DNA of 64,000 nt, from positions 1,687,501 through 1,751,500 of the forward strand of contig NZ_CP109446.1 in the NCBI RefSeq assembly GCF_036227265.1, read 5' to 3'. The number at the start of each line of letters is the position of its first letter. Positions within the stretch are counted from its first letter, which is position 1. Below are positions 37,376 to 43,798 of the stretch, piece by piece. Position numbers and translations under genes: made by a program. The notes beneath the pieces were generated by a model, which had not been told where the DNA came from, did no database searches, and saw nothing but the letters and a program-made list of their open reading frames with translations. This DNA is from Streptomyces sp. NBC_01476. Lineage in GTDB: Bacteria > Actinomycetota > Actinomycetes > Streptomycetales > Streptomycetaceae.

Positions 37376-39169
37376 GTGCCAGGACCCATCGAGGACTACG
37401 CGCTCATCGGCGACCTGCAGACGGCCGCGCTGGTGGGCCTTGACGGCTCCATCGACTGGCTCTGCCTGCCCCGCTTCGACTCGGCCGCCTGCTTCGCGGC
37501 CCTGCTCGGCGACTCGGACAACGGCCGCTGGCGGCTCGCCCCGCGTGACGCCGACCGCTGCGACAGCCGTACCTACCGGGGCGACACCCTGGTCCTCGAC
37601 ACCTTCTGGGAGACCCCGACCGGCACCGTCAAGGTCACCGACTTCATGCCGCAGCGCGACCGCGCGCCCGACGTGATCCGGATCGTGGAGGGGCTGACCG
37701 GCGAGGTCGCCATGCGCGGCGAGCTGGCGCTGCGCTTCGACTACGGCAACGTGGTGCCCTGGATGCGCCGGGTCGACGGTCACCGGGTGGCCGTCGCCGG
37801 GCCGGACTCGGTGTGGCTGCGCAGCGACCCGGGGGTGCCGATGTACGGCCGGGGCATGCGCACCTACGCGGACTTCACCGTCACGGCCGGGGAGCGCCTG
37901 GCCTTCATACTCACCTGGCACCCCTCGCACGAGAAGCGGCCCCGGCGGGTGGACCCGTACGCCGCGCTCGACCAGAGCCTGGCGGACTGGGACGCCTGGT
38001 CCGCCCAGTGCGCCTACGAGGGGCCCTGGCGCCCCGCGGTGGTGCGCTCGATGATCACCCTCAAGGCGCTCACCTACGCGCCCAGCGGCGGCATCGCGGC
38101 CGCCGCGACCACCTCGCTGCCCGAGGAAATCGGCGGGGTCCGCAACTGGGACTACCGCTACTGCTGGCTGCGCGACGCGGCCCTCACCCTCAACGCGCTG
38201 ATCTCCGGCGGCTTCCTGGAGGAGGCCAACGCCTGGCGCGACTGGCTGCTGCGGGCGGTGGCCGGCGACCCCGCGGACCTGCAGATCATGTACGGCATCG
38301 CCGGCGAGCGGCGGCTGCCCGAGTACGAGGTGCCCTGGCTCAAGGGGTACGAGGGCTCCGCGCCGGTCCGGATCGGCAACGCGGCGGCCGGCCAGCTCCA
38401 GCTGGACGTCTACGGCGAGGTGCTGGACTCGCTCTTCCTGGCCAGGGAGCGCGGCCTGGAGCACGAGTCGCACGCCTGGAGCCTGCAGCGGACCCTGATG
38501 GACTTCCTGGAGTCCAAGTGGCGCGAGCCGGACGAGGGGCTGTGGGAGGTGCGCGGCGGGCGGCGGCACTTCGTGCACTCCAAGGTGATGGCATGGGTCG
38601 CCGCGGACCGGGCGGTGCGCACCCTGGAGGCCAACCCCAGACTCAAGGGCGACGTGGACCGGTGGCGGTCCATGCGCGCCCAGGTGCACGCCGAGGTCTG
38701 CGAGAAGGGGTACGACCCGGTCCGCAACACCTTCACCCAGGCGTACGGCTCCACCCAGCTGGACGCGGCGACGCTGCTGATCCCGCAGGTGGGCTTCCTG
38801 CCGCCGACCGACCGCCGGGTGCTGGGCACCGTCGAGGCGGTCCGCCGCGAGCTGGACCACAACGGCTTCGTCCGCCGCTACACACCCGAGGCGGACAACG
38901 TGGACGGCCTGCCGGGCGGTGAAGGCGCCTTCCTGGCCTGCTCGTTCTGGCTCGCGGACGCCCTGCACGCCACCGGCCGCCGGGACGAGGCGGTGGAGCT
39001 CTTCGAACGGCTGCTGGCGGTCCGCAACGACGTGGGGCTGCTCGCCGAGGAGTGGGACCCGGTCGCGGGCCGCCAACTGGGGAACTTCCCCCAGGCGTTC
39101 AGCCACATCGGTCTGGTCAACACGGCGCTGGCCCTCTCCGACTCCCCCATCCGCCTCCCGGCGGAGTGA
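37376..39169 (+). CDS. Glycoside hydrolase family 15 protein
   Basis: A 597-residue cytoplasmic enzyme of the GH15 glucoamylase/trehalase-like family. The N-terminal beta-sandwich starts PIEDYALIGDLQTAALVGLDGSIDWLCLPRFDS; the (α/α)6 barrel has GGVRNWDYRYCWLRDAALTL with a catalytic-acid-region Glu and EEWDPVAGRQLGNFPQAFSHIGL near the end. Actinobacterial members include trehalases and oligosaccharide hydrolases. There is no signal peptide. The start GTG 37376 follows GGCGAGGCGGAAC. The gap before it holds three GGAACACC-like direct repeats (~37315-37350). Confidence 0.92.
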   Translation: MPGPIEDYALIGDLQTAALVGLDGSIDWLCLPRFDSAACFAALLGDSDNGRWRLAPRDADRCDSRTYRGDTLVLDTFWETPTGTVKVTDFMPQRDRAPDVIRIVEGLTGEVAMRGELALRFDYGNVVPWMRRVDGHRVAVAGPDSVWLRSDPGVPMYGRGMRTYADFTVTAGERLAFILTWHPSHEKRPRRVDPYAALDQSLADWDAWSAQCAYEGPWRPAVVRSMITLKALTYAPSGGIAAAATTSLPEEIGGVRNWDYRYCWLRDAALTLNALISGGFLEEANAWRDWLLRAVAGDPADLQIMYGIAGERRLPEYEVPWLKGYEGSAPVRIGNAAAGQLQLDVYGEVLDSLFLARERGLEHESHAWSLQRTLMDFLESKWREPDEGLWEVRGGRRHFVHSKVMAWVAADRAVRTLEANPRLKGDVDRWRSMRAQVHAEVCEKGYDPVRNTFTQAYGSTQLDAATLLIPQVGFLPPTDRRVLGTVEAVRRELDHNGFVRRYTPEADNVDGLPGGEGAFLACSFWLADALHATGRRDEAVELFERLLAVRNDVGLLAEEWDPVAGRQLGNFPQAFSHIGLVNTALALSDSPIRLPAE

Positions 39170-39211: not shown

Positions 39212-39811
39212 TCAGCTGACCCGGCGGGCGCGGTGGCGGACGGCTCGCAGCCTTGCTTCGGTGGGGAGTTCGTCGAGGCGGGCCGAGGAGCGGGCGTGGG
39301 CGAGTACCGCCGCGTCCAGGCCGGCCACGACGTCGACGGGGGTGGCGTGGGGGGCCAGGCCCAGCACCAGCCGGGCCTGGGGTGCGCCGTGCCGGGCGAC
39401 GAGGGCCGCGCCGGCCCATTCCACGCCCTCGTAGGCCTCGGACTCCACGGTGAGCACGCTTTCCAGGGCCCGGCCGCGGACCAGTGCGCCCTGGCCGTCG
39501 CCGCTGTCGATCCGCAGCTGGCGCAGCCGCCGGGTGCGGGCCTGGGCCAGCAGCCACCACAGGCCGATCACGAAGATCACCGCGAGCGCCGCGATGACCA
39601 CCGGCCACCACCAGTCGTCCGAGCGGTAGCGGGTCCGGTCATGGTCGCTGAGCAGCACGTCCTTGGGCCCGTCGAACGGCCACGAGGAGGGCAGCGTGAA
39701 GTCCCAGTGCCGCTGCAGGTCGAGGCTGCCGATCAGCACCGCGACGCCCAGCGCGAGCAGCACCAGGCCGATGAGAGCGAGCAGGATCCGGTTGACCGCG
39801 GTGCGCCGCAT
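39212..39811 (-). CDS. amaP: AmaP-type Asp23 membrane anchor protein
   Basis: A 199-residue protein with two helices (ILLALIGLVLLALGVAVLIG, VVIAALAVIFVIGLWWLLAQ) and a cytoplasmic C-terminal domain. It resembles the alkaline shock response membrane anchor AmaP, which tethers Asp23 in staphylococci. It is last in a five-gene minus-strand operon of Asp23 proteins and small membrane proteins. ATG 39811 follows GAGGAG; GTG 39826 would overlap the upstream stop. Confidence 0.85.
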   Translation of the reverse strand: MRRTAVNRILLALIGLVLLALGVAVLIGSLDLQRHWDFTLPSSWPFDGPKDVLLSDHDRTRYRSDDWWWPVVIAALAVIFVIGLWWLLAQARTRRLRQLRIDSGDGQGALVRGRALESVLTVESEAYEGVEWAGAALVARHGAPQARLVLGLAPHATPVDVVAGLDAAVLAHARSSARLDELPTEARLRAVRHRARRVS

Positions 39812-39822
39812 CGGGCTTCTCC

Positions 39823-40509
39823 TCACGCGTTCTTGTCGGCGCGCTGGACGGACACGCGCAGGCGGGGTGGCTTGGCGAGGCCGAGCTGACGGACCGCCTG
39901 GTCCAGCGCATCGGTCAGGTCCCGCCGTACGTCGGTCAGTTCGCGGAAGTGCGAGGTGGCGCGGACCCTGATGTGGCGGCGGCCGACCGCGACCCGCGCC
40001 CAGCGGATGCCGGAGACCTCCATCGCCCGGTCGCGCAGGACCAGTTCGGCGGCGTGCCGGTCGAGCCCGGCGCGGACACCCGACGGTCCGCGGCGCGCCA
40101 TCGGCAGCACCCCGCGCTCACCGGGGGTGACGGCCAGCACCAGCAGCCACAGCCCGAGCACCGCGCACACCGAGGCGCCGAGGATGACCCAGGTGTCGTC
40201 CAGATGCCGGGTGGCCAGCTGGCGGGCGAGGCTCTTGCGCCAGCTCATCGCCTTCCGGTCGGCGCGCACCGACGACACGTCGTAGAGGAAGAGCCCGGAC
40301 AGGCCGACCACCACCGCGGCGGTGATCGCCGAGGGCACCCGGCGCGCTGACCAGAACCGCCTGACACCGACCGCGTTCGCCTCGTCCTGGGCGGGTGCGC
40401 GGCGGAGGCCGCCGGCGGTCACCTGCTCGCGGATGTCCACCGCGGTGTCCCGGGTGGCGGAGTCGCCGCGCTCCGGCTCGGGGCCGGCCGGCGGGCCGGG
40501 GTGGCTCAC
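39823..40509 (-). CDS. DUF6286 membrane protein
   Basis: A 228-residue protein. An N-terminal ~55-residue polar region is followed by two helices (VPSAITAAVVVGLSGLFLYDV, TWVILGASVCAVLGLWLLVLAV) and a C-terminal domain (RHAAELVLRDRAMEVSGIRWARVAVGRRHIRVRA) that reads like an Asp23-type strand-helix repeat. It is known only as DUF6286, part of streptomycete Asp23 clusters. GTG 40509 overlaps the upstream gene stop (GTGA). Confidence 0.82.
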   Translation of the reverse strand: MSHPGPPAGPEPERGDSATRDTAVDIREQVTAGGLRRAPAQDEANAVGVRRFWSARRVPSAITAAVVVGLSGLFLYDVSSVRADRKAMSWRKSLARQLATRHLDDTWVILGASVCAVLGLWLLVLAVTPGERGVLPMARRGPSGVRAGLDRHAAELVLRDRAMEVSGIRWARVAVGRRHIRVRATSHFRELTDVRRDLTDALDQAVRQLGLAKPPRLRVSVQRADKNA

Positions 40510-40877
40510 CGCACCCTCCCCTCGTCCTTGCGGCGGGCGGTCGCCGAGTGCAGCCGCTCGATCTCGACGGCCACCTCGGGGACCTGCATGCCCGTCAGTT
40601 CCTCGACCCGGACCGCGACATGGCGGCGTACCGACGCGCTCACCGCACCGAGGTCCGCGGGGTAGCCGAGCTCCAGGGCGAGCCGCAGCCGGGCGGTGTT
40701 CTTGCGCACCGACACCGTGGCATGGGCGGCGGCCTCCCGCGGCACCAGGTCGGCGCCCGGCGCGCCGGAGAGCACCTCACCGGCCGCCTGGGAGGCGATC
40801 TTGGCGATCACCCGGTCGGCGATCCGCAGCGAACCCCGCTCGGCGGGCGGCAGTTGCCCCGGGACGGCTGCCGCCAT
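40506..40877 (-). CDS. Asp23/Gls24-family protein (short)
   Basis: A 123-residue cytoplasmic protein of the Asp23 alkaline-shock/Gls24 family: LRIADRVIAKIASQAAGEV, VSVRKNTARLRLALELGYPADLGAVSASVRRHVAVRVEELTGMQVPEVAVEIERL. It is predicted to act at the envelope with AmaP and DUF6286. Start and stop overlap both neighbours (TGATG before, GTGA after), showing tight stoichiometry. Confidence 0.85.
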   Translation of the reverse strand: MAAAVPGQLPPAERGSLRIADRVIAKIASQAAGEVLSGAPGADLVPREAAAHATVSVRKNTARLRLALELGYPADLGAVSASVRRHVAVRVEELTGMQVPEVAVEIERLHSATARRKDEGRVR

Positions 40878-41089
40878 CAGCGCCGCCGGTCGCGGTCGCG
40901 GTCACGGTCGCGGTCACGGTCGCGCGGCCGGAAGAACTCCCCCGGTTCGATGTCGCCGTCGATGAACTTGCCCACCACGAAACCGATCGCACCGAGCGCC
41001 GCCACCAGCAGAAAAGCCCCGAAACCGCCGAAATACCCGGCGAAGCCGAGCGCCATTCCGACGGCCAGTCCGATCACCGCCATGCTCAT
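40877..41089 (-). CDS. Small membrane protein of the Asp23 operon (70 aa)
   Basis: Two closely packed hydrophobic segments (MAVIGLAVGMALGFAGYFGG, FGAFLLVAALGAIGFVVG), then FIDGDIEPGEFFRP and a tail of alternating Arg-Asp (RDRDRDRDRDRDRRR). Similar small proteins occur in other actinobacterial Asp23 clusters. The zwitterionic tail is encoded by a 12-bp repeat and probably varies in length. Its stop overlaps the next start (TGATG). Confidence 0.8.
   Translation of the reverse strand: MSMAVIGLAVGMALGFAGYFGGFGAFLLVAALGAIGFVVGKFIDGDIEPGEFFRPRDRDRDRDRDRDRRR
40887..40924. repeat. Hexamer/dodecamer tandem repeat coding Arg-Asp
   Basis: About three copies of CGGTCGCGGTCA (six-base sub-period GGTCGC/GGTCAC) encode the Arg-Asp tail of the 70-residue membrane protein. 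A multiple of three keeps the frame, so slippage would only change tail length. Confidence 0.75.
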
Positions 41090-41140
41090 TCCGCGCTCTC
41101 CGTCCCCTTGAGGTTCCGCGCCCGGCAGTCGGGTGTCCGG

Positions 41141-41644
41141 CTACTGGACCCGCGACTCACGGTCGTCCTCGTCCTCTTCGTCGGGGAGTTTCACATCGCC
41201 GACGGCGACATTGACCTCGACCACTTCGAGACCGGTCATCCGCTCCACCGCGGCGATCACGTTCTCCCGCACCGCGCGCGCGACTTCGACGATCGAGACG
41301 CCGTACTCGACGACGATGTCCAGGTCGAGCGCCGTCTGCACCTCGCCGACCTCGGCCTTGACGCCGCGGCTCACCGAGGTCCTGCCGCCGGGCACCCGGT
41401 CGCGCACCGCACCGAAGGTACGGGACAGACCGGTGCCCATCGCGTGCACCCCGACGACATCGCGCGCGGCGAGGCCGGCGATCTTCTCCACCACGCCGTC
41501 GGCGATGGTGGTGCGGCCGCGCGTGGCCGGATCACCGAGGGCCTTGCGACCGGACACGCCGGTGCTGCCCTTGTCCAAGGTCCTGCCCTCGGTGGAGTAT
41601 GACGGGCCATCCGGTTCCGGCCTGCCCTGCTGCGCGTCCGTCAT
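41141..41644 (-). CDS. Asp23/Gls24-family envelope stress protein (long)
   Basis: A 167-residue Asp23-family protein, first gene of the operon. Core: TTIADGVVEKIAGLAARDVVGVHAMGTG, VKAEVGEVQTALDLDIVVEYGVSIVEVARAVRENVIAAVERMTGLEVVEVNVAVGDVKLP, with an acidic tail (DEEDEDDRES). Asp23 proteins form membrane-proximal filaments under envelope or alkaline stress in Firmicutes; the role in streptomycetes is open. ATG 41644 follows AAGGGACGA. The upstream gap (133 nt, divergent from the P10-family gene) holds CCCAC-N5-GTGGG at 41678-41692. Confidence 0.88.
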   Translation of the reverse strand: MTDAQQGRPEPDGPSYSTEGRTLDKGSTGVSGRKALGDPATRGRTTIADGVVEKIAGLAARDVVGVHAMGTGLSRTFGAVRDRVPGGRTSVSRGVKAEVGEVQTALDLDIVVEYGVSIVEVARAVRENVIAAVERMTGLEVVEVNVAVGDVKLPDEEDEDDRESRVQ

Positions 41645-41777
41645 CGCGAGTCGTCCCTTCGTCTGGGTCGTGCGTGTCCCACACTAGGTGGGCGTTCCCC
41701 GAAGCGCTCAGGGGATGCGGCCGAAGGGTACCGCCGACCCCCCGGATGAGTGGTCGGCACTGGGAAGGCGATGCCGG

Positions 41778-42530
41778 ATGACCATGGACCGACTGACCCG
41801 CACCGTACGGGAGCAGGTTGCCCTGGGCCGGCTTCTTCCGCTCGGCGGGCCCGACGACCCGGTGTGGATCACCGAGAACGCCGCCGTGCTGGCGCTGCGC
41901 GGTGCCGCCGACGGGATGCGCGGGGTACGGCTGCGGGATGTCGATGTGGTGCTGGTCGACGCCGGCGGCGCGCCCAGCGTACCGCCCGCCGCTCCGGTGG
42001 GCGCGCTGCCGCATCTGCCGGTGCGCATCGAGGCGGAGTTCGACGCGGCGGCCGACGAACCGCTGCCGGTGACCGCCGAGCGGCTGCGCGATGTGCTGTG
42101 GGAGGCGGCCGGGCCCCGGCTCGGCCTGGTGGTGGCCGCGGTGGACCTCCAGGTGTCCGGGCTGCTGGACGACGGGCCGCCGGCGCCGGGCGGCCCGCTG
42201 GAGGGCAGGGTGCTCGACCCGGAGCCGGAGCCCGGCCCGGCGCTGGTCGAACCCGGCAGCGCGGAGGCCGTCGCCGCTGCCGCCCGCGCGGTGCCCGGGG
42301 TGCGGCGCCTGACCCGCCGGCTGGCCGGCCTCGGCCCGGGCATCCGGGTGCGTGACGACACCGCCGAGGGCCGGTCCCCGTCCCGCCACGTCCAGGCCCA
42401 GATCGCCACCGGCCCCGGGCACCTGCCGCTGGCCGTCGCCCGCGCGGTGGCCGTCGCGATCGCCGACGCGGCGGCGCCCGGTGCGCCGGGCCCGGTGACG
42501 TCGGCGGTGGTGGTCACGGACGTGGGCTGA
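41778..42530 (+). CDS. 'Nucleopolyhedrovirus P10 family' conserved protein
   Basis: A 250-residue actinobacterial protein that databases name after the baculovirus P10 family; that name is probably not meaningful. It contains Asp23-like repeats at its end (VAAAARAVPGVRRLTRRLAGLGPG, SRHVQAQIATGPGHLPLAVARAVAVAIADAA), suggesting a divergent Asp23-related fold. Position next to and divergent from the Asp23 operon supports a shared role. ATG 41778 follows GGGAAGG. No signal peptide. Confidence 0.72.
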   Translation: MTMDRLTRTVREQVALGRLLPLGGPDDPVWITENAAVLALRGAADGMRGVRLRDVDVVLVDAGGAPSVPPAAPVGALPHLPVRIEAEFDAAADEPLPVTAERLRDVLWEAAGPRLGLVVAAVDLQVSGLLDDGPPAPGGPLEGRVLDPEPEPGPALVEPGSAEAVAAAARAVPGVRRLTRRLAGLGPGIRVRDDTAEGRSPSRHVQAQIATGPGHLPLAVARAVAVAIADAAAPGAPGPVTSAVVVTDVG

Positions 42531-42558: not shown

Positions 42559-43350
42559 CTACTCCCCCACCCCGGCCAGGTCCCGCAGCCGGCGGCCCTG
42601 GGCCGCGCGCTCGGCGGCGTACTGGGCGGCCTCGGGCGTCGTCACGGCGGAACGGAGCAGCGCCTTGGTCTCGTTGACCGCGTCACGCGGGGGCGCCAGG
42701 AGGGCGGCGGCCAGGTCGGCGACGGCCGCGTCGAGGTCGGCGGCGGGGACCACGAGGTTGGCCAGGCCGATCCGTTCGGCCTCGGGGGCGTGCACGTAGC
42801 GGCCGGTCGCGCAGATCTCCAGCGCGCGTCCGTAGCCGACCAGCGCGACGAGCGGCTTGGTGCCGGTGAGGTCGGGGACCAGGCCGAGACTGGTCTCCCG
42901 CATGGCGAACTGCGCGTCGTCGGCGCAGATCCGCAGGTCGCAGGCGAGCGCGAGCTGGAAGCCGGCACCGATCGCGTGTCCCTGGACAGCGGCGACCGTG
43001 ATCAGATCGGTGCGCCGCCACCAGGTGAAGGCCTCCTGGTACTGGGAGATGGCCGCGTCGAGCTCCGCGTCGGAGCCGCGCGCGAGGTCCAGGAACGAGG
43101 GCTCGCCGTCGAAGCCCTCGGGCGTGAACGCCTGCCGGTCGAGCCCCGCGGAGAAGGACGCGCCTTCGCCGCGCAGCACCACAACGCGCACCTGCCCCGG
43201 CACCAGCCGCCCCGCTTCGGTCAACGCCCGCCACAGGGCGGGCGTCTGCGCGTTGCGCTTGGCCGGATGGCACAAGGTCACCGTCGCGACAGCGTCATCG
43301 ACGGTGAGCCGGACCCCGTCACGTTCGAGCAGGGTGTTCTCTTCGGGCAT
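42559..43350 (-). CDS. Enoyl-CoA hydratase/isomerase family protein
   Basis: A 263-residue crotonase-fold enzyme: LRGEGASFSAGLDRQAF (oxyanion hole 1), AAVQGHAIGAGFQLALACDLRICADDAQFAMRETSLGLVPDLTG (oxyanion hole 2 and the catalytic Glu region) and KPLVALVGYGRALEICATGRYV. It probably hydrates or isomerises an acyl-CoA; substrate unknown. Catalytic residues vary in this family, so specificity should not be assumed. It is single, convergent with the P10-family gene by 28 bases. Confidence 0.9.
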   Translation of the reverse strand: MPEENTLLERDGVRLTVDDAVATVTLCHPAKRNAQTPALWRALTEAGRLVPGQVRVVVLRGEGASFSAGLDRQAFTPEGFDGEPSFLDLARGSDAELDAAISQYQEAFTWWRRTDLITVAAVQGHAIGAGFQLALACDLRICADDAQFAMRETSLGLVPDLTGTKPLVALVGYGRALEICATGRYVHAPEAERIGLANLVVPAADLDAAVADLAAALLAPPRDAVNETKALLRSAVTTPEAAQYAAERAAQGRRLRDLAGVGE

Positions 43351-43435: not shown

Positions 43436-43657
43436 TCAGGCCGCGGTGGCCTTCTTGCCCCGTGTCGCCCCGCCGCGACCACGCAGGGTCACGCCGGACT
43501 CGCTGAGCATCCGGTGCACGAATCCATAGGAGCGGCCGGTCTCTTCGGCCAGCGCCCGGATACTCGCGCCGGAGTCGTACTTCTTCTTCAGGTCTGCCGC
43601 GAGCTTCTCGCGCGCGGCGCCGGTTACCCGGCTGCCCTTCTTCAGAGTCTCGGCCAC
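43436..43657 (-). CDS. gbn: Gbn, GATC-binding nucleoid-associated protein
   Basis: A 73-residue basic HTH protein: N-terminal LKKGSRVTGAAREKLAADLKKKYDSG, central HTH ASIRALAEETGRSYGFVHRMLSESG, and a C-terminal RGRGGATRGKKATAA tail. The sequence and length match what I recall of S. coelicolor Gbn (SCO1839), a nucleoid protein binding GATC sites and affecting sporulation timing. GTG 43657 follows AGGAGG. A GATC lies ~40 bases upstream of the start, within the probable promoter, so autoregulation is possible. Confidence 0.88.
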   Translation of the reverse strand: MAETLKKGSRVTGAAREKLAADLKKKYDSGASIRALAEETGRSYGFVHRMLSESGVTLRGRGGATRGKKATAA

Positions 43658-43798
43658 CCGTGCCTCCTCTAGGGAAGTGCGCTGTCGAACTCTCATGATC
43701 ACCCCTAAGCGCCTTCCTGGCCACCCATTCGACAAGGTCCATCACGCGACATTCGCAAGGTGAATGCCCCGATAGCGCCCGCGGAACGGGGGAGGCGG

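Follow-up and report, generated by a model that had tools for sequence, protein, structure and literature searches.

A five-gene Asp23 operon of Streptomyces and its divergent neighbour P10, a protein of probable anti-sigma ancestry

The window, a stretch of 64,000 nt from Streptomyces sp. NBC_01476 (contig NZ_CP109446.1, positions 1,687,501 to 1,751,500), carries an operon of five genes that encode two Asp23 proteins (Asp23-A and Asp23-B), a 70-residue membrane protein, a DUF6286 protein and an AmaP-like membrane anchor. The operon is faced by the divergent gene of a protein termed P10. We propose, with a probability of roughly 0.6, that a sigma/anti-sigma switch belonging to this Asp23 scaffold operon formerly controlled it, and that the Streptomycetaceae lost the sigma factor, kept the Asp23 part of the anti-sigma factor as P10 and changed the promoter. 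The computations support gene content, domain relationships, gene position, trees, a promoter contrast and selection on P10. The designation 'P10' is presumably an NCBI product name; the phrase was not found in the literature searched.

Features are listed here with window coordinates. Loci are numbered with L and genomes with G throughout.

41778..42530, + strand: P10; ATG start at 41778, alternative GTG at 41688; divergent from the operon
41865..42173, + strand: predicted P10 domain 1 (residues ~30-132); matches the Asp23 domain of the anti-sigma factors
42243..42527, + strand: predicted P10 domain 2 (residues ~156-250); the small Asp23-like protein encoded after the anti-sigma gene in some loci matches its end
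41679..41688, - strand: -10-like element CCTAGTGTGG before Asp23-A, common to much of the P10 clade
41141..41644, - strand: Asp23-A, operon gene 1, 167 amino acids; PF03780, 102.7 bits (cut-off 28); order conserved
40877..41089, - strand: 70-residue membrane protein, DUF2273-like, with Arg-Asp tail RPRDRDRDRDRDRDRRR
40506..40877, - strand: Asp23-B, 123 amino acids; PF03780, 37.1 bits (cut-off 28)
39823..40509, - strand: DUF6286 protein; PF19803, 119.1 bits (cut-off 35); predicted long helices at residues 57-82 and 106-127 and a predicted C-terminal Asp23-like fold at ~148-226
39212..39826, - strand: AmaP-like membrane anchor, 204 amino acids; NF033218, 63.5 bits (cut-off 55)

P10 and its relation to anti-sigma factors

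Beside the operon of other actinobacteria there is often an ECF sigma gene, followed by a gene whose product mostly combines a zinc motif with an Asp23-like part and, in some loci, by a gene for a small Asp23-like protein. We take the zinc-motif protein to belong to the ZAS anti-sigma family (RsrA type). Profile comparison by hhalign aligned P10 with these anti-sigma factors over 124 columns (probability 99, E = 2e-18), starting past the ZAS part, and the C-terminal end of P10 with the small partner over 38 columns only (probability 95, E = 2e-8). Both hhalign and the domain tree described below relate an Asp23-type domain of P10 to its counterpart in the anti-sigma factors. When the genome of the window was searched with the anti-sigma query, P10 was the sole match (E <= 0.001) and was aligned from query residue 89, again past the ZAS part.

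The ZAS part itself was not detected in P10. The motif Hx3Cx2C was present in five of five anti-sigma factors and in none of 35 P10 proteins, nor was it found in 80 named P10 loci. Among the 417 open reading frames (ORFs) of the window, the ZAS profile gave no match at E <= 1 and the sigma profile none at E <= 10. Likewise, no sigma gene was detected beside P10 at E <= 1e-20 within the stretches examined of the named loci. These are the best 80 of 486 P10 relatives, taken from 76 assemblies, all of Streptomyces except one of Wenjunlia. In all 80, which were found by a P10 search, P10 lies divergent beside Asp23-A, and 50 of them display the full gene order with both flanking genes. Across the order, 117 of 147 genomes matched P10, some of the matches being sigma-type anti-sigma factors (e.g. 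in G153, G234, G243 and G285). P10 proper was restricted to the family of the window among the loci examined; G241, from another family, has one match without ZAS. The divergent, Asp23-like facing protein of the original prediction is real; its kinship with anti-sigma factors had been missed.

No Pfam or NCBIfam family matched the window P10 at E <= 1. Its AlphaFold2 (AF2) model (pLDDT 89.8, pTM 0.85) has two alpha-beta-beta-alpha-beta domains, one per half, and P10 is predicted to consist of two Asp23-like domains. The view that P10 is Asp23-like at its end only was rejected on this model: the original prediction was right about the C-terminal half, but the fold is seen in both. For the DUF6286 protein, the model (mean pLDDT 79.1, pTM 0.58) comprises long helices and one alpha-beta-beta-alpha-beta domain, with values mostly of 96-98 in the C-terminal fold. 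Lack of a predicted Asp23 fold in DUF6286 and P10 would have counted against the original prediction. Such a fold was recovered in both models, and sequence profiles tie AmaP to DUF6286 and the anti-sigma relatives of P10 to Asp23 and DUF6286.

C-terminal domains of CDF transporters, e.g. that of MamM, also resembled the DUF6286 domain and each half of P10 (Z = 8-10). The best row for the DUF6286 domain (window 39832-40068) was the PrgK ring domain (Z = 9.4, 2.7 Å over 79 residues). PrgK, from the type III secretion ring, was tied within 1 with the CDF domains; this likeness may be relevant to the way rings or filaments assemble. Foldseek E-values for the CDF and PrgK matches to P10 and DUF6286 were at least 0.002. 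The arrangement is a common one and is not taken as membership; the fold counts here only in so far as it agrees with the links found by sequence. In the PDB, phmmer with Asp23-A returned three weak matches only (E = 0.5-0.7) and the P10 profile none at E <= 1; no solved Asp23 relative was found by these sequence searches.

Sigma-type loci in other actinobacteria

The 62 annotated loci comprised 20 with a sigma gene and ZAS, 13 with a sigma gene but without a detected ZAS motif, 20 typed as P10 and nine with neither. One locus typed as P10 (L165) is a weak 22-bit mis-hit on the operon strand, so that real P10 loci number 19. The 20 loci chosen by DUF6286 included seven of the P10 type, eight of the sigma type and five with neither. 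The sigma gene is divergent from Asp23-A, like P10, in 22 of the 33 sigma loci, and 10 of the 33 were labelled as having the small Asp23-like partner. Eleven families of the class contained sigma-type loci, which were also seen on most of the deeper branches; some loci on those branches have neither form. Three genomes contain both forms at separate loci: G039 (L075 and L148), G089 (L076 and L149) and G191 (L074 and L150).

The anti-sigma set consisted of 26 proteins from the 33 sigma loci (at least 40 bits). Left out were L078, whose frame is a fusion, and L084, L086, L157, L164, L166 and L167, which had no match of at least 40 bits. The pattern C...Hx3Cx2C was present in 20 of the 26. At E <= 0.1, Asp23 matched 21 of them, DUF6286 nine and zf-HC2 one; in addition, their N-terminal part aligned with six zf-HC2 proteins of the window's own genome over 30 columns (probability 90, E = 1.6e-6). 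Some sigma-type loci have sigma neighbours of Asp23 type without the ZAS motif. Among the matches listed, 22 of 28 anti-sigma matches covering the ZAS end lay, as judged by eye, within ~5 kb of a DUF6286 match. L074, L075 and L076 each have a 4-nt overlap between the sigma and anti-sigma genes.

A few sigma-type loci displayed unusual arrangements. In L157 (7401-8042) the sigma gene is kept, the anti-sigma frame stops shortly past the ZAS part and has another residue in place of the first Cys; judged from its sequence, this anti-sigma gene is possibly decaying. In L078 (4600-6126; the same stretch in L034) an ECF sigma factor and an Asp23-like domain share a single open frame downstream of AmaP. 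Between Asp23-A and the sigma gene of L074 (8004-10313) lie what we take to be genes for a fasciclin-like lipoprotein and a molybdopterin-oxidoreductase-like protein, and in L138 a short, presumably CsbD-like ORF separates the ECF-like promoter from Asp23-A.

Phylogenetic position of the P10 loci

An operon tree was built from four concatenated operon proteins of 50 of the 62 loci (623 columns), without P10. In this tree the P10 loci and four members lacking P10 (L006, L155, L156 and L163) formed one clade (FastTree 0.99, SH-aLRT/UFBoot 99.5/99). Its sister group was the sigma-bearing L131, L157 and L078, with a joint support of 85/94. Near this split, L157 has a sigma gene with a shortened anti-sigma frame and L078 a sigma-Asp23 fusion frame. 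A second tree, made from P10 domain 1 and the Asp23 domain of the anti-sigma factors (40 sequences, 118 columns), recovered a P10 clade with support of 100/100 and placed P10 with L131 and L078 at 77/77.

Promoters upstream of Asp23-A

In sigma-type loci, an ECF-like pattern (GTSAS-N17/18-GTCY) was found upstream of Asp23-A. It was present in 23 of 32 loci (14 of 19 with sigma and ZAS and nine of 13 with other sigma genes; 1.8 expected from shuffles), as compared with one of 20 loci typed as P10 (0.73 expected), one of eight with neither (0.2 expected) and two of the 80 named P10 loci. It is absent before Asp23-A of the window. Ten sigma-type loci (L078, L085, L132, L134, L142, L143, L144, L146, L147 and L162) lay outside the set from which the motif was drawn, and six of them have the pattern before Asp23-A; in L132 and L134 it stands before the sigma gene. 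A strict form of the pattern occurred once per genome, at the operon, in four of seven sigma-type genomes (G039, G285, G234 and G199), and not at all in the P10-type genome G000.

The P10 clade displays a different element, C[CTA]TANNNTGG, before Asp23-A, which presumably resembles a housekeeping -10 box. It was found in 13 of 20 loci typed as P10 (0.38 expected), in 54 of the 80 named loci (1.82 expected) and in three of the four clade members without P10 (0.04 expected), as against none of the 32 sigma-type loci (0.8 expected). This element was drawn by eye from the loci typed as P10, and the named set is largely, not wholly, independent of them: L169 and L240 appear to be the same as L151 and L152.

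The operon, its recurrence and its second copy

Checked in the window DNA, all six ORFs lie where the original prediction had placed them. Its gene identities were confirmed above curated cut-offs for both Asp23 proteins, DUF6286 and AmaP. The membrane protein is DUF2273-like: the window copy scores below the cut-off of PF10031 (16.1 against 25.4 bits), and the family was matched by 27 of 37 scanned homologues (E <= 0.1; best 2e-8). The Arg-Asp tail described for this protein is present in the window copy but is not a general trait, since at least two consecutive RD/DR units inside the final 25 residues were found in 16 of 58 homologues. Similarly, the overlapping frames that had been reported hold for three of the four gene junctions (4, 4 and 1 nt) but not for Asp23-A and the membrane protein, which are 51 nt apart. 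AmaP and DUF6286 aligned over 159 columns (hhalign probability 76, E = 2e-5), and in five genomes a weak DUF6286 match stands directly beside a strong one, at the place expected for AmaP. In the model of the DUF6286 protein, the two long helices may be read as a membrane hairpin. On sequence grounds, the operon appears to be the actinobacterial counterpart of the Firmicutes Asp23-AmaP system.

Of 296 genomes of the class, 122 gave a DUF6286 match (E <= 0.001), 105 of them above the cut-off. The order Asp23-A, membrane protein, Asp23-B, DUF6286, AmaP is kept in 19 of the 20 actinobacterial loci chosen by DUF6286; the exception is L083, with DUF6286 and AmaP only. Because of this conserved order and the divergent position of P10 in every named locus, the five-gene grouping is not a matter of chance. 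In four of the 20 loci (L074, L075, L076 and L086) the Asp23-B and DUF6286 matches fall inside one open frame and look there like a single protein.

The window's own genome (8.4 Mb, single contig) contains five Asp23 matches: two in the window, two in a second five-gene copy (L006, at ~7.17 Mb) and one lone gene. The DNA of the second copy is 84.9% identical to that of the window copy over 2558 alignment columns. Its proteins are 98% (AmaP), 91% (Asp23-B), 70% (membrane protein) and 68% (DUF6286) identical to those of the window, and Asp23-A is 88% identical over 148 residues. Because AmaP reaches 98% while DUF6286 and the membrane protein remain at 68% and 70% in the comparison with window 39212-41644, the AmaP end of the two copies looks as if it had been homogenised by gene conversion. 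The idea that the second copy also has a P10 gene was dropped, as none was found next to L006. The lone third Asp23 gene (L007, ~5.99 Mb) is without the other operon genes; a gene near it is presumably SRPBCC-like.

Around the window operon lie a GH15-family gene (37376-39169) and an enoyl-CoA-hydratase-family gene (42559-43350). These are the flanks found in the same places in 50 of the 80 named loci; in the rest, one or both are missing or lie beyond the stretch examined. Past the hydratase gene (43436-43735), a small protein is encoded that we take to be helix-turn-helix-like.

Alternative origins of P10 and the weight of the evidence

A different origin would make P10 a duplicate of a scaffold Asp23 gene, i.e. 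a third soluble subunit without anti-sigma ancestry. The Asp23-like fold of both halves and the position of P10 next to the operon would agree with such a duplication, on which the domain tree has no direct bearing. We nevertheless regard it as unlikely: the best profile match of P10 is the anti-sigma Asp23 domain (probability 99), compared with 28 for Asp23-A and 2 for Asp23-B, its end matches the small protein encoded behind the anti-sigma gene in some loci, and the operon tree, built without P10, puts sigma-bearing loci as sisters.

Alternatively, P10 could still be an anti-sigma factor that acts in trans on an unlinked ECF sigma factor. Their common ancestry would fit this, as would the 22 matches to the operon-linked ECF sigma factor in the window's own genome (E <= 0.001). 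Moreover, ZAS may be dispensable for sigma binding, because some sigma loci have Asp23-type neighbours without the motif. Against this stand the absence of Hx3Cx2C from the 35 P10 proteins and the 80 named loci and the absence of the ECF-like operon promoter from the P10 clade. Survival of the linked sigma factor elsewhere in the genome was rejected, the best match being merely 41% identical. This match adjoins genes that we take to be trxB (thioredoxin reductase) and trxA (thioredoxin), and is hence presumably SigM-like. A role in trans is accordingly rather improbable.

It is very improbable that the P10 locus is ancestral and that other lineages gained the sigma/anti-sigma pair later. Midpoint rooting without an external outgroup would allow this order of events, which is opposed by the occurrence of sigma-type loci in 11 families and on most deeper branches, with P10 proper in the window's family only. 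Least credible of all, and dropped, is the idea that P10 is a functionless, decaying relic of the lost switch: although P10 is less conserved than Asp23-A and missing from L006, L155, L156 and L163, it is widespread in Streptomyces, and its ratio of nonsynonymous to synonymous substitution rates (dN/dS) was 0.32-0.57 in nine of nine pairs (some sharing a locus), above Asp23-A and in the same range as DUF6286 and Asp23-B.

Several observations also weigh against descent of P10 from a lost switch. With regard to gene position, 10 of the 33 sigma loci have the sigma gene at another place in the cluster, pointing the same way as Asp23-A, and one more (L136) is without a called Asp23-A. Apart from the 20 loci chosen by DUF6286, most loci had been picked by an anti-sigma, P10 or DUF6286 match, and proportions among the loci are not frequencies. 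With regard to the trees, both were midpoint-rooted without an outgroup. The domain tree contained 24 of the 26 anti-sigma factors, 15 of the 19 P10 proteins and no scaffold Asp23 proteins, and on it L131 and L078 alone were unsupported as a pair (28/66); support for the sister group of P10 is moderate. We slightly lowered our confidence in the proposed history of the operon and P10 because the sigma gene is divergent in 22 of 33 and not in all loci, and because the domain tree lacks scaffold Asp23 proteins.

With regard to domains, the ZAS assignment draws on the motif and the 30-column match, with Pfam zf-HC2 found in one of the 26. The low direct probabilities between P10 and the scaffold Asp23 proteins count here as well, and the link between them is weak, running through the anti-sigma bridge and the predicted fold. 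Pfam Asp23 (PF03780) matched two of 40 members of the P10 set (best E = 0.034). The Asp23-like fold is itself common. Foldseek gave no match for DUF6286 at E < 0.001 and E-values of 0.01-0.05 for CDF domains against P10. The two rows for P10 at E < 0.001 were both methionine adenosyltransferases with root-mean-square deviations of 14-15 (near 14.6), a likeness not taken as meaningful.

With regard to promoters, the ECF motif derives from visual inspection of 22 sigma-type loci, of which 17 contain it, and nine of the 32 sigma-type loci lack the ECF-like promoter. Two sigma-type genomes, G089 and G191, are without the strict pattern, and away from the operon it occurred once in G153 (sigma-type) and twice in G018 (P10-type; once in the backward control).

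Proposed mechanism

In the proposed scaffold, AmaP and DUF6286 would be membrane hairpin anchors that bear cytoplasmic Asp23-like domains, the DUF2273-like protein would be a third membrane component, and Asp23-A and Asp23-B would make up a soluble layer on the inner membrane face. An ECF sigma factor of its own would have activated the ancestral operon. A soluble anti-sigma factor, in which a zinc-binding ZAS domain was combined with an Asp23 domain, would have held this sigma factor. By attaching to the scaffold, the Asp23 domain may sense the scaffold's state. In one lineage of the Streptomycetaceae, the sigma factor and the ZAS domain would have been lost, the Asp23 domain of the anti-sigma factor would have merged with the small Asp23-like partner to form P10, and the ECF promoter of the operon would have been replaced by one of another type. 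The most likely role of P10 would then be that of a soluble Asp23-type adaptor docking on the scaffold. Scaffold assembly, sensing by Asp23-Asp23 contact and docking of P10 are inferences only.

As a tentative extension, the Asp23 scaffold could itself be the sensor of a switch responding to envelope stress, with free Asp23 subunits competing with the sigma factor for the anti-sigma factor, so that the state of the scaffold sets its synthesis. After loss of the sigma factor in the Streptomycetaceae, P10, made of the sensor half of the anti-sigma factor and its small partner, would possibly have become a scaffold part, structural or regulatory, with the operon under a new promoter. A transcription switch would in this way have been turned into a scaffold part.

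If an anti-sigma factor with a domain of Asp23 kind was the ancestral controller, the signal path becomes testable, i.e. as titration of the anti-sigma factor by free Asp23. The P10 clade would represent a natural loss of the switch with exchange of the promoter, and both states can be compared in laboratory Streptomyces.

Comparison with known systems

In the literature searched, no mention was found of a link between P10 and these anti-sigma factors, of sigma and ZAS being lost in a single lineage, or of the promoter change that goes with it. The pairing of ECF sigma factors with Asp23 is already on record as a prediction: ECF286 and ECF292 are described as encoded beside soluble proteins of the Asp23 family for which an anti-sigma role is predicted (PMC8999054). 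Sigma-type relatives of the operon are alike in having an ECF sigma gene beside a soluble Asp23-domain protein. The window differs in lacking such a sigma gene and in having P10, with tandem Asp23-like domains and no ZAS. The pattern C...Hx3Cx2C that 20 of the 26 sigma-type anti-sigma factors share with ZAS anti-sigma factors likewise has no counterpart domain in P10.

In Streptomyces venezuelae, an Asp23 gene, which may or may not be part of this operon, is reported as downregulated after ethanol shock (PMC9769785). Staphylococcus aureus Asp23 is described as attaching to the inner membrane face via AmaP and forming filaments, with both proteins encoded in one operon, and its molecular function was still called unclear there in 2020 (PMC6954212). 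The likeness to the window is that of Asp23 and its AmaP anchor in one operon, and the membrane-tethered Asp23 assembly of the original prediction is reasonable as a counterpart of the Firmicutes system, though not new in kind. The window differs from S. aureus by its two Asp23 proteins, by P10 and by DUF6286, read here as a second anchor; its relatives add an ECF sigma/anti-sigma pair. The DUF6286 protein is a full member of PF19803, to which Pfam gives no function; interpreted as a second AmaP-like anchor with a predicted Asp23-like fold, DUF6286 would gain, together with the P10 family, a reading linked to function.

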